Source: Actinomycetota bacterium (lineage in GTDB: Bacteria; Actinomycetota; Acidimicrobiia; Acidimicrobiales; Ilumatobacteraceae). From it: a DNA stretch of 64,000 nucleotides. How positions within the stretch are numbered: position 1 is the stretch's first letter; the number at the start of each line of letters is the position of its first letter. The notes under the pieces were generated by a model. That model was given only the letters and a program-made list of their open reading frames with translations, ran no database searches and was not told the DNA's origin. Location: positions 1-64,000 of the forward strand of contig JAQCJO010000001.1 of assembly GCA_027592925.1 (NCBI GenBank), given 5' to 3'. The position numbers and the translations under genes were made by a program. Shown in pieces: positions 59,407 to 63,712 of the stretch.

Positions 59407-60207
59407 TTACTTGCCAGAATCGCGAGGCTCAATACCCACGTGTGCTGGTGGCCCAGTCAGCATCGAGAAATCTTTGTCAATAGTTTCAAACGACGACATG
59501 CCTTTTTCAAGAGCGAGAAAAATTTCAGACTCTGGCGAACACCACATCTCGTATTCGGCAGCCCACTTTTCGTCCTTGGGATCTGTTCCACCAACTGCAT
59601 AACGCTCATGGCACACAACGCCGAGAATTTCTGCTTCGGTGAGTGCACCGCCAAGTTTTTCACCTTGCATCGGCATTGGGTTTCCGTTGTATGAGAGTGG
59701 TGCATGCGCTCCACCTTCGCGGTCTGGATTGCCGTACACCTTGAGTCCTGCAGTCACGTACGCCTGACTGCCGGTGTACACAAAATTCAACATGTCCTCA
59801 ATCTTTGGAAATGTTTTCATTACTTCGCCTTGGTGTAGCGCACGACCTGCGCCACCCTGACCTTCGGCGCCGTGACAACCAGCGCATGATCCGTAGACCG
59901 CTGCACCGACTGCTAGCGGACCTTCAACAACTTTTTCTTGTGGCATGAGCGCCGCCACGTACATAAATGCCCACAATGGGAGCAGGCTCAATGTTGCCAT
60001 TGCCCAAAACGGAATCTTTTTGCGCGACTTGGCTGCGGCAACATAGGAAGGATCTGGAAGTGCTGGCGGGGCGGCTTGCACAACTGCTTTTTCAACTGGT
60101 GCGGGCACCGCAGCCGAGGTAGTGGCAACCGCATCTGTGGAAGGCGTTGCGCCCGACCGTTGGCGATCTTTCGAGCGCTTGAGGAGGTGTTCGGGTATCT
60201 CGGTCAC
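59407..60207 (-). CDS. membrane-anchored c-type cytochrome
   Basis: 266 residues. N-terminal tag TEIPEHLLKRSKDRQRSG, an Ala/Pro/Val-rich linker, one membrane helix (FWAMATLSLLPLWAFMYVAAL, ~residues 66-86), then a haem c domain with CAGCH near residue 107 and a Met-rich loop (NGNPMPMQGEKLGG) supplying the axial Met. The same IPEHLLKR tag starts the bc subunit-IV-like protein at 62109. GTG 60207 is chosen over ATG 60216 because AGGA lies eight bases upstream of the GTG. Probably an electron acceptor of the bc complex. Confidence 0.88.
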   Translation of the reverse strand: MTEIPEHLLKRSKDRQRSGATPSTDAVATTSAAVPAPVEKAVVQAAPPALPDPSYVAAAKSRKKIPFWAMATLSLLPLWAFMYVAALMPQEKVVEGPLAVGAAVYGSCAGCHGAEGQGGAGRALHQGEVMKTFPKIEDMLNFVYTGSQAYVTAGLKVYGNPDREGGAHAPLSYNGNPMPMQGEKLGGALTEAEILGVVCHERYAVGGTDPKDEKWAAEYEMWCSPESEIFLALEKGMSSFETIDKDFSMLTGPPAHVGIEPRDSGK

Positions 60208-60403
60208 AGCAATCATCCTAAATCAAATTTGGTCCAATTCAAGAACGCATCGCACCAGATCGGAAAGAATGCACGGTTTTCTGACGAGGTTGTTACAAGT
60301 CACAAGCCGCACTTTTGCACGAACTCGTGAGTTTTCGCCTCTCGGTACTTTGCCCGACTAGCCTTATTTAGGTCTTGATGAAGGAAGGGTACCCCTGCAA
60401 ACC
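60208..60403. promoter_or_regulatory. divergent intergenic region between cytochrome c and the bc-complex locus
   Basis: 196 bases, presumably with both promoters. I see no convincing -35/-10 pair by eye. TTGTTACAAGTCACAA at about 60289-60304 is only vaguely Rex-like. Near the right end GGAAGG (60383-60388) is six bases before CTG 60395, and a 12-codon frame (60378-60416, containing CKPCW) overlaps the next gene's ATG. Confidence 0.4.
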
Positions 60404-60880
60404 ATGTTGGCAATAAACATTCTGAAGTGGCCCGGCATGAACCAAGCGTTCTTGTTTTCGTTTTTCCTGACGCTTGTTTTAACTGGTGCGATCATCGTTG
60501 TCGGTATGCGCCGTCCACCAGATCGTAAAGCAACATGGGGTGAGGCAATTTTTGGGGCAACCTACGTCTTTGCGGTCTTGTTCATTGCATTCGGTGTTGT
60601 GCCTCATCAGTTCATCGACCACGCCGACAAAAATTTGGGTTGGCGCAAGGACAATATCATTTACGGACCTTTTGACATCCTGAAGCCCCAGTCCTTCGGC
60701 GGCCAGTTTCCGTTTGATGTGAGTTATGAAGCAATTCGTGACACCATTGTTGTAGTGATTCATGTTTTTTACTTCGTAATAATGGGTCTCATCTTTGCTT
60801 GGTGGCAAAAGCGTGGAGCGGTAAAGACGAAAGAAGTTGAGACATCCTCATACGGCCGACCACTGATGCGCAAGGCCTGA
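60404..60880 (+). CDS. membrane protein of the cytochrome bc locus
   Basis: 158 residues, three hydrophobic segments (NQAFLFSFFLTLVLTGAIIVVG, AIFGATYVFAVLFIAFGVV, IRDTIVVVIHVFYFVIMGLIFAWW), and conserved-looking charged loop DHADKNLGWRKDN. Not a known cytochrome subunit. It precedes the ferredoxin and the b-type cytochrome genes by a few bases each and is likely part of the same complex. The ribosome site GGAAGG is better placed for CTG 60395 (three residues longer) than for ATG 60404. Confidence 0.75.
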   Translation: MLAINILKWPGMNQAFLFSFFLTLVLTGAIIVVGMRRPPDRKATWGEAIFGATYVFAVLFIAFGVVPHQFIDHADKNLGWRKDNIIYGPFDILKPQSFGGQFPFDVSYEAIRDTIVVVIHVFYFVIMGLIFAWWQKRGAVKTKEVETSSYGRPLMRKA

Positions 60881-60886
60881 TCCGAA

Positions 60887-61300
60887 ATGACAAAGACCGA
60901 CGCCAACCCACCAATGCCAGAATGGTCGGACGAGTATCAACTCGTTGAAGTCGATGCTGCCTATCTTTCTAAGGCTGTTAAACCAAAGCAGTTCATCCAC
61001 ATTGATCAGAGCGAATGCATCATGTGTGAAGGTTGCGTCGATATTTGTCCGTGGAAGTGCATCCACATGGTTTCACCCGAAGCGGTTGCTGTTGCCGAAA
61101 ATACCGAGAAGCCAGGCGATGATCCATCCGACAATGTGTTGTTTATCATTGACGACGACGTCTGTACACGTTGCGCATTGTGCGTTGACCGTTGTCCAAC
61201 CGGAGTCATCATTATGGGCAAAATTGGCGATCCAGTTGCAACAGGAGACTTTCATACACGCACGTCAAACCATGGCTACGGCTATGGGATGCGGCTCTAG
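60887..61300 (+). CDS. two-[4Fe-4S] ferredoxin within the bc-complex locus
   Basis: 137 residues. Two full cluster motifs: C44-IM-C-EG-C-VDI-CP and, ~50 residues later, C-TR-C-AL-C-VDR-CP. Typical of a soluble or peripheral 8Fe ferredoxin. Being between the small membrane protein and cytochrome b it may bring low-potential electrons into the quinone/bc system, or be a peripheral subunit. Not a normal component of bc complexes. Confidence 0.88.
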   Translation: MTKTDANPPMPEWSDEYQLVEVDAAYLSKAVKPKQFIHIDQSECIMCEGCVDICPWKCIHMVSPEAVAVAENTEKPGDDPSDNVLFIIDDDVCTRCALCVDRCPTGVIIMGKIGDPVATGDFHTRTSNHGYGYGMRL

Positions 61301-61326
61301 AAGACTGACGGATAAGGAGAAAAAAT

Positions 61327-62112
61327 ATGGCACTAACACTTGATGAGCGACCCAAGGTAACTCTGAAGGAACGCACGACCAAAGTAAACGAGTCGCTCAA
61401 AGCGAGCCAAGCGTGGAACTCAATTTTTCGTCCAGGCTCAATTTTTCGCAAGGGCTACACCGACTCTCCTCGTAACCGTTCGTATGTGATCATGAACTCG
61501 GTGCTCTATCACTTGCACCCAGTGAAGGTAAAGCGTCACGCTGTAAAAGTCAGTTACACGCTGTGCCTTGGAGGCTTGAGCTTCTTCTTGTTTATTTTGC
61601 TCACCGTGACCGGCATCTTCTTGATGTTCTTTTATCGACCAACCGCTACCAATGCATGGCAAGATATCCAGTCGCTACAAACTTCGGTGACGTTTGGTCT
61701 GATGGTTCGAAACATGCACCGATGGGGTGCCCACTTGATGGTGCTGAGCACGTTTTTGCACATGTCGCGAGTGTTTTATCACGGTGCGTACAAAGCTCCG
61801 CGAGAATTTAACTGGGTTATCGGTGTCATTTTGCTCACACTGACATTGCTCCTATCGTTTACCGGTTACTTGTTGCCATGGGATCAACTTGCTCTCTGGG
61901 CAGTAGCGGTGGGTACCAACATGATGGGTTATTCGCCCGTCATTGGTTCTCAAGTTCGATTCGTGCTACTTGGTGGTGTCGAGATCGGTGCCGAAACTCT
62001 TCTGCGTTGGTACGTGTTACACGTGTTGCTATTTCCATTCATCACAGTCATCTTTCTTGCCGTGCACTTTTGGCGGGTACGTAAAGACGGCGGAATATCG
62101 GGGCCACTATGA
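61327..62112 (+). CDS. cytochrome b, N-terminal (b6-type) subunit
   Basis: 261 residues with four membrane helices. Haem ligands: NMHRWGAHLMVLSTFLHMSRVF (two His) and RWYVLHVLLFPFITVIFLAVHFW (two His); PWDQ region SFTGYLLPWDQLALW. A b6-length protein; the remaining cytochrome b part is on the next gene. AAGGAG site upstream. ATGA overlap with the subunit-IV gene. Confidence 0.93.
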   Translation: MALTLDERPKVTLKERTTKVNESLKASQAWNSIFRPGSIFRKGYTDSPRNRSYVIMNSVLYHLHPVKVKRHAVKVSYTLCLGGLSFFLFILLTVTGIFLMFFYRPTATNAWQDIQSLQTSVTFGLMVRNMHRWGAHLMVLSTFLHMSRVFYHGAYKAPREFNWVIGVILLTLTLLLSFTGYLLPWDQLALWAVAVGTNMMGYSPVIGSQVRFVLLGGVEIGAETLLRWYVLHVLLFPFITVIFLAVHFWRVRKDGGISGPL

Positions 62113-62846
62113 CCGAAATACCAGAACACCTGCTCAAGCGCGCGCAAGCCGCACGCGACAAGGCTGCAACCGAGACTGGATCACCAGACTCTGCAGGTGC
62201 ACCACCAGCAGATTCGCGTATCCCTGAAGCGTTGCTCAACCGTTCAAAAGCCGCCAAAGAAGGCGGAGGAGTTGCTGTTGCAGAGCGAGTCGCAACGGGT
62301 GTTGTAGCGGTCGCACCAAATGGCAATGCACCCATTGGCACTGGCCCTGGTGGACATACGCAACGCTTGTTGACGGTCGTGAAGTCTGGCTCGATCCAAG
62401 ATGTCAAGGCTGTGCCGGTCGACAAAGTACATACATGGCCACACTTGCTCGGACCAGAGTTTGTTTCCGCACTTGCATGCACTGCGTTTTTGTTTGTGTT
62501 CTCGTGGTTTGTTAACGCACCGTTGTTGCAAGCAGCAAACTTCAACCAAACACCAAACCCATCGAAAGCACCGTGGTATTTCTTGGGGTTGCAAGAGTTG
62601 CTGACAATGTTTCATCCGATGATTGCAGGTGTGACGCTTCCTGGTGTAGCGCTCGTTGCGTTGATCCTTACTCCGTACATGGATCGCAATCCATCAAATA
62701 AACCAGAGGATCGCAAATTCCTCACCAGCATTTTCACGGTTCACCTGATGTTCTGGGCAGTGCTCGTGATCATTGGCTCGTTCTTCCGTGGTCCCGGCTT
62801 CAACTTCGTATTCCCATGGGTTGAGGGCATCTTTTTCGAACTCTAA
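62109..62846 (+). CDS. cytochrome bc subunit-IV-like (C-terminal cytochrome b) with tagged N-terminus
   Basis: 245 residues. The C-terminal ~130 residues hold three helices and the Qo-site 'PEWYFL' region as PWYFLGLQELL, as in subunit IV. The first ~110 residues are an extension with MTEIPEHLLKRAQAARDKA and a second copy DSRIPEALLNRSKAAKEGG. The tag TEIPEHLLKR also begins the cytochrome c encoded divergently. Overlaps cytochrome b by ATGA. Confidence 0.9.
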   Translation: MTEIPEHLLKRAQAARDKAATETGSPDSAGAPPADSRIPEALLNRSKAAKEGGGVAVAERVATGVVAVAPNGNAPIGTGPGGHTQRLLTVVKSGSIQDVKAVPVDKVHTWPHLLGPEFVSALACTAFLFVFSWFVNAPLLQAANFNQTPNPSKAPWYFLGLQELLTMFHPMIAGVTLPGVALVALILTPYMDRNPSNKPEDRKFLTSIFTVHLMFWAVLVIIGSFFRGPGFNFVFPWVEGIFFEL

Positions 62847-62860
62847 GGCGACATTCACTT

Positions 62861-63712
62861 ATGAACACCACCACCATCATCACCCTCGCAGTCGCAGCAT
62901 TACTCGTGCTTGGGCTTGCACTTGTACTGACGTCGGTCAAGCGCAACGACTCACGCGGTGTCGGCGCACTGAAGCGCGAGACTCGCCGCAAAGACATTGG
63001 CAAAGTTGACCCGAACGAAAAAACTGGTCGCGAAGTTGAGCGCGCTGCAGTCGCTGCTCGCAACATTGCCATTGCAACTCGTCCGGTTGCCGAAGTTGAG
63101 CCATGGTCGCCACCAGATGTCGAAGCAATTGGTGTGGCGCGTCGACAATTTTTAAATCGTGCAACAGGAACATTGTTGGGTGCGAGCCTTGGTGCATTTG
63201 GCGCAGCATTGATCGCATTTTTGTGGACAAGTTCGTCCGGTGGTTTCGGTTCCAAAATCACGCTCGGCAATCTCGACACGGTGATCGGTCAGATTCGCGC
63301 CAATAAGGGTTTTTATTACGTCCCGCAAGCTCGTGCGTGGTTGACAGAATACCCCAAAGAGGGTCTTTCAAAAGCCAAAGTGGCCTACGGTGCGCAGCCG
63401 GCAGTTTATGGTGGCATGCAAGCCGGAATTATCGCCTTGTACCAAAAGTGCCCACACTTGGGTTGCCGCGTTCCAAACTGCCAGAGTTCACAATGGTTCG
63501 AGTGCCCGTGTCACGGATCGCAGTACAACATTGTTGGCGAAAAAAAGGGTGGTCCTGCTCCTCGCGGCATGGATCGCTTTGGAGTTTCTGTTGCCAATGA
63601 CATTGTGGTAGTCGACACGGGTTCCGTATTTGGTGGTCCACCAATTGGCACCAACACCACGGGTCAAGAAGCCGAAGGTCCACACTGTGTTGGTACTGCA
63701 GGAGGCCACTAA
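62861..63712 (+). CDS. Rieske iron-sulfur protein (QcrA-like)
   Basis: 283 residues. N-terminal helix, a charged stretch, internal twin-Arg-like RRQFLNRATG before a second helix (LLGASLGAFGAALIAFLW), then the Rieske fold with C197-PHLGC and C215-PCHGS (2Fe-2S ligands plus the disulfide Cys). Electron transfer from menaquinol to cytochrome c. The following gene's ATG overlaps its stop (TAATG). Confidence 0.95.
   Translation: MNTTTIITLAVAALLVLGLALVLTSVKRNDSRGVGALKRETRRKDIGKVDPNEKTGREVERAAVAARNIAIATRPVAEVEPWSPPDVEAIGVARRQFLNRATGTLLGASLGAFGAALIAFLWTSSSGGFGSKITLGNLDTVIGQIRANKGFYYVPQARAWLTEYPKEGLSKAKVAYGAQPAVYGGMQAGIIALYQKCPHLGCRVPNCQSSQWFECPCHGSQYNIVGEKKGGPAPRGMDRFGVSVANDIVVVDTGSVFGGPPIGTNTTGQEAEGPHCVGTAGGH

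Follow-up and report, generated by a model that had tools for sequence, protein, structure and literature searches.

Why should two otherwise unrelated proteins of a bacterial respiratory chain begin with the same short peptide? The question is raised by a window of 64,000 nucleotides (contig JAQCJO010000001.1, positions 1 to 64,000) from an Actinomycetota bacterium of the class Acidimicrobiia, family Ilumatobacteraceae, in which the peptide IPEHLLKR, here called the tag, stands at the start of both a membrane-anchored cytochrome c and subunit IV of a bc-type complex. The results of the current analysis suggest that this shared helical tag, carried on the inner-side tails of respiratory proteins, belongs to a docking system, not described before, by which parts of the respiratory chain would be kept together.

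The tag, its two hosts and its conservation

The cytochrome c gene occupies positions 59407 to 60207 of the minus strand, with a GTG start at 60207 whose position is the same in orthologs. The open reading frame encodes a monohaem protein, with weak Pfam matches to Cytochrom_C/CBB3 and one CxxCH motif; its N-terminus, (V/M)TEIPEHLLKRSKDR, reads as MTEIPEHLLKRSKDR, and the tag, TEIPEHLLKRSKDR, covers residues 2-15 (60163 to 60204, minus strand). Subunit IV, the PetD-like C-terminal subunit of cytochrome b (Pfam Cytochrom_B_C, 1.7e-8), is encoded on the plus strand at 62109 to 62846 and begins with MTEIPEHLLKRAQAAR. This tail contains two copies of the tag on the plus strand, TEIPEHLLKRAQAAR at residues 2-16 (62112 to 62156) and RIPEALLNRSKAAK at residues 37-50 (62217 to 62258). 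All three copies were recovered by pattern search and as predicted helices, and all are also supported by comparison with orthologs. The original prediction, that IPEHLLKR begins both proteins, recurs within subunit IV and joins hosts that are unrelated apart from it, agrees with the sequence, the whole-genome pattern search and the Pfam assignments; the second copy does lie downstream of the first, but the gap from the end of copy 1 to copy 2 measures about 20 residues and not the approximately 25 that had been given. When the whole genome (1.66 Mb, 98.5% complete) was searched with the degenerate pattern [IVM]PExLLxR, the three matches obtained were all at this locus and the reversed-pattern control gave 0. 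A degenerate fourth copy, IPVLLLVRSQAA, which the pattern missed, forms the C-terminal end of an Nfu_N-like protein encoded elsewhere in the same genome.

The AlphaFold model of the cytochrome c (mean predicted local distance difference test score, pLDDT, 88) places the tag in a helix at residues 6-18 (pLDDT about 73-78), followed by a disordered linker and by a single transmembrane helix at residues 67-87. Since the protein would cross the membrane only once, ahead of its haem domain, its tail is expected on the cytosolic side. In subunit IV, the tags are predicted as helices at residues 6-21 (pLDDT about 70) and 40-50 (pLDDT about 58) within a disordered tail. PetD-type subunits start on the n-side of the membrane, as is established for the b6f complex, and KorA, the alpha subunit of 2-oxoacid:ferredoxin oxidoreductase and a further host described below, is cytosolic. 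On this predicted topology, all of the tag sites could face the cytosol.

Conservation was followed in an ortholog set from Acidimicrobiia, comprising 140 loci that surround the subunit IV gene, drawn from over 30 families and from 80 contigs, with Ilumatobacteraceae/acIV as the nearest relatives. Three of the 137 subunit IV tails compared were truncated or masked; in the remaining 134 readable tails a relaxed tag expression was found without exception, compared with 0.17% of shuffled tails, so the tag is not missing from orthologs, and two copies are present in 119 of the 137. P and R of the subunit IV tag are invariant (n=134), E and H are near-invariant and position 8 is A or S, while column information, which reaches up to 4.3 bits within the tag, drops to about 1-1.8 bits across the linker. 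In an alignment of 43 cytochrome c orthologs, P5, L8 and R11 of the tag likewise never vary, and neither do the haem-binding C, C and H. Among exact IPEHLLKR copies, third codon positions vary at eight of eight sites and second positions at none, which indicates that selection acts on the peptide and rules out a DNA- or RNA-level signal. A stricter pattern run over 148 Acidimicrobiia genomes matched 30 of them (reversed-pattern control, 0), and every locus read encoded cytochrome c or subunit IV, the two tagged genes often lying about 2 kb from each other in divergent orientation. Many families of the class have tagged cytochrome c genes, and genomes recorded as lacking subunit IV gave no strict-pattern match where both lists cover them. 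The genome-wide counts, the reversed-pattern controls and the shuffles together rule out a chance or low-complexity artefact.

A longer module and further hosts

In the deep families f12, f15, f17, f20, f23, f28, f31 and f32 the tag extends into a unit of about 43 residues, of which it forms the central helix (alignment consensus xxLLAAAAxAxGxPExLVxRSAxARAKAxGxxxExVLAEWAGG). This module would appear to consist of three short helices, and its end, VLAxW/M-xG, is conserved. Intermediates between tag and module exist in f21, f22 and f29, for instance VPEHLLRRSKERRKALGLPVEGEE, and the tag is homologous to this Acidimicrobiia-specific helical module, probably as its reduced form. Two subtypes are apparent. 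Subunit IV and KorA carry subtype A (IPEHLLRRSAEAKAKALGVPVEQVLAEMxGE); cytochrome c and an oxidase-linked membrane protein carry subtype B, in which a helix is added at the front and a Trp stands close to the end. Identity with a known domain was rejected, as Pfam and NCBIfam gave no match above cut-off (only marginal matches, in one or two members) and PDB no credible match (best E 0.07 over 11 residues). Searches of the literature for the tag and module strings, and for Acidimicrobiia bc/ferredoxin, found nothing.

Profile searches covered Acidimicrobiia and about 260 genomes of other classes. Within the class, a clear gap separates strong module matches from background; in the other classes tag and module are essentially absent, with one weak profile match (G394). 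Three pattern matches outside the class (L042-L044), and L041 within it, sit in reading frames that do not resemble the hosts and appear to be chance matches, so the tag was not assigned to other Actinomycetota. The strong matches fall on subunit IV, in up to four or more copies (L135), and on one or two cytochrome c genes at the bc locus, in up to three copies each. The module also occupies the N-terminus of a polytopic membrane protein of 370-430 residues without a Pfam family (L170-L186, e.g. L171:2359-3477). In f15, f23 and f28 the gene for this protein follows cox genes and ctaG or adjoins cox genes (loci L171, L172, L173, L179, L181, L182 and L186; the neighbours across the three families include cox1, cox3, cox4 and ctaG), and in f19 (L114) the cox operon contains the tagged cytochrome c gene. 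Tagged components are thus encoded in both bc and oxidase loci, and genomics gives good support to a connection of the bc complex with cytochrome c and oxidase.

Two soluble proteins complete the set of hosts. KorA carries the module in an N- or C-terminal acidic tail in five f15 genomes of about 1 Mb that were read, and a sixth f15 genome has a KorA with a C-terminal copy. Its identity is clear from Pfam POR_N (1.6e-49), POR (1.1e-26) and TIGR03710 (OAFO_sf; 649.5 bits, cut-off 482.75). The tagged tails are long, acidic and of EEPVVEE type (L175, L176, L177, L291-L295) and are confined to one subclade; sister genomes lack them, and the KorA of other f15 genomes is untagged, at 616-624 residues. 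The KorA module closely resembles the subunit IV module of the same family, and the comparison suggests that it was copied from there. The second protein, soluble, Nfu_N-like and of about 150 residues, was found with the short-tag profile and ends in a C-terminal tag, sometimes degenerate, in 14 of 14 genomes read from the window's family (in the window's genome at G000:C14:50287-50601 and following, L356; also L348-L352). No C-terminal tag was present in the orthologs read from f3, f8, f10 and f13. Its assignment as an Nfu/NifU scaffold is not supported, the Nfu_N match being below cut-off (best E 0.01, range 0.01-0.25; 16.3 bits against 27). The view that the tag stands in front of membrane subunits therefore proves too narrow, as the tag also occurs at C-termini and, in two lineages, on soluble proteins; it is indeed not broadly scattered, but KorA and the Nfu_N-like protein, both cytoplasmic and lineage-specific, break its restriction to respiratory or membrane proteins.

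The operon that contains the tagged subunit IV gene opens, on the plus strand, with a 158-residue membrane protein (60404 to 60880; open reading frame, no Pfam family above cut-off), followed by a 2[4Fe-4S] ferredoxin (60887 to 61300; Pfam Fer4) and the PetB-like N-terminal subunit of cytochrome b (61327 to 62112; Pfam Cytochrome_B, 8e-46). The Rieske iron-sulphur subunit (62861 to 63712; Pfam Rieske, 1.9e-9) comes after subunit IV, and the matches to Cytochrome_B, Cytochrom_B_C and Rieske in consecutive genes identify a b6f/bc-type complex with a split cytochrome b. In 121 of 122 loci across the class, the subunit IV gene is preceded by that of a ferredoxin with the motif CxxCxGCxxxCPW, which may represent a new electron entry point or an n-side subunit. 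Downstream on the same strand lie a 353-residue c-type cytochrome gene (63712-64773, partly past the window end and read from the contig continuation) and then a complex I (nuo) cluster (window 63712 to contig C78:76096, L139).

A proposed docking role and its alternatives

We favour, with moderate confidence, the interpretation that the tag is a docking module linking members of successive respiratory complexes, because it is portable, repeated, carried on linkers, present at N-terminal, middle and C-terminal sites and common to successive complexes. A copy number of 1-4, a variable position and lineage-specific gain in KorA tails are typical of docking modules. We propose that a cytosolic docking helix would be displayed on flexible Ala/Pro/Gly/Glu-rich linkers at the inner side of the membrane, where one shared binding site would gather the bc-type complex, through the usually two copies on subunit IV, and the membrane-anchored cytochrome c. 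In several families the oxidase-linked membrane protein would be tethered to the same site, and a supercomplex would be formed or assembled from the tethered parts. In some lineages soluble proteins would be brought to the same place, namely KorA, which reduces ferredoxin, and the Nfu_N-like protein, perhaps an Fe-S carrier. The partner may be other modules, in a homotypic contact for which the A and B subtypes would permit A-B pairing, or a common receptor. The earlier idea of a docking or assembly signal for a bc-oxidase supercomplex is thus borne out as regards the link of the tag to bc, cytochrome c and oxidase loci, and is abandoned as regards membrane subunits or N-termini only; the physical association itself is put forward here as a proposal.

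Several observations weigh against this interpretation. AlphaFold modelled subunit IV poorly (predicted template modelling score 0.25) and gave no reliable packing of one tag against the other; in f20 the gene for the tagged membrane protein adjoins serA/serC instead of cox genes; and the tag is also present on a soluble Nfu_N-like protein of unclear function in one family. KorA is tagged in only some of the genomes of about 1 Mb and is untagged in most of them, and no KorA match exists in the window's genome, which rules out a universal role for KorA as partner. That the tag binds, and what it binds, is moreover what we infer from these patterns, as is, from topology, the cytosolic side.

The tag could alternatively serve assembly or maturation, as a helix read by a chaperone, insertase or cofactor-loading factor during the synthesis of subunit IV and cytochrome c and not as a permanent link. 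Its presence on subunits of several complexes would fit such a role, as would the position of the oxidase-linked protein after the assembly gene ctaG in f15 and the same tag on the Nfu_N-like possible Fe-S carrier in family f1. We nevertheless judge this explanation rather unlikely, since several copies per chain fit steady docking better, KorA is a soluble enzyme without a known shared assembly path, and the Nfu_N-like protein bears the tag instead of being its receptor, with a Pfam match below cut-off. Still less probable is an amphipathic helix that lies along the inner face of the membrane and holds the tails in position by binding lipids, without a protein partner. The tag is short, with I, L and L on one face and K/R residues, and most of its hosts are membrane proteins; however, a P and an R that never vary, with E and H that hardly do, exceed what lipid binding needs. 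The full module moreover has a conserved end and occurs on soluble KorA as well, and the tag on the Nfu_N-like protein. An expression or localisation signal, such as a translation ramp, degron or targeting peptide, is very improbable. Both window proteins do carry the tag at the very start of the reading frame, but second copies lie in mid-tail, KorA has the module at either end and the Nfu_N-like protein has the tag at its C-terminus; the freedom of third codon positions speaks against a nucleic-acid signal, and A or S at position 8 against a fixed phospho-site.

Returning to the docking interpretation, the two soluble carriers are the ferredoxin-reducing KorA and the Nfu_N-like protein, which hints, as a lead only, at a docking site near the ferredoxin of the bc operon. 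A more far-reaching version, which we offer as a tentative possibility, is that a dedicated, portable cytosolic module unites the bc complex with membrane cytochrome c and oxidase in a single assembly, to which some lineages recruit soluble enzymes such as KorA, so that a step of the tricarboxylic acid cycle and the bc-operon ferredoxin would be held beside the quinol-oxidising complex. The usual view is that contacts between particular subunits hold supercomplexes together; if the proposal is true, this respiratory assembly would be organised by a shared plug-in domain instead. A module found throughout the class and shared by the bc complex, by cytochrome c, by a protein linked to the oxidase and, in one lineage, by KorA would amount to a different way of organising respiration. 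The tag would also provide a sequence handle for finding further partners in these abundant uncultured aquatic bacteria, and the conserved bc-operon ferredoxin is an obvious place to seek a new electron entry point.

Comparison with known systems

The closest system within the phylum is the CIII2CIV2 (bcc-aa3) supercomplex of mycobacteria and corynebacteria, in which a bc complex is likewise coupled to the oxidase via a membrane-bound cytochrome c. Direct contacts between subunits, together with a fused dihaem cytochrome c, hold that supercomplex. The sampled genomes of other classes of the phylum, weak or chance matches aside, lack both tag and module. The cytochrome cy of the Rhodobacter bc1-cbb3 supercomplex is similarly a membrane-tethered cytochrome c that shuttles between bc complex and oxidase, and Foldseek gave a weak, non-significant match to chain p of 6xkw (E 0.06) in this comparison; its tether, however, is a transmembrane helix with a periplasmic linker, to which the Acidimicrobiia cytochrome c adds the putative cytosolic tag.

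Other likenesses lie outside respiration. The cargo-loading peptides of encapsulins and the encapsulation peptides of microcompartments are also short helical terminal tags borne by unrelated proteins on low-complexity linkers, although the hosts of the Acidimicrobiia tag are mainly integral membrane respiratory proteins. The peripheral subunit-binding domain (PSBD) of the E2 chains of 2-oxoacid dehydrogenases, whose mode of action would be comparable, differs from the module in sequence pattern and hosts, and the corresponding E3-binding Pfam family matched none of 24 module copies, even at E<=10. Nevertheless, it too is a helical docking domain of about 35-45 residues, carried on Ala/Pro-rich swinging linkers, that gathers different enzymes.

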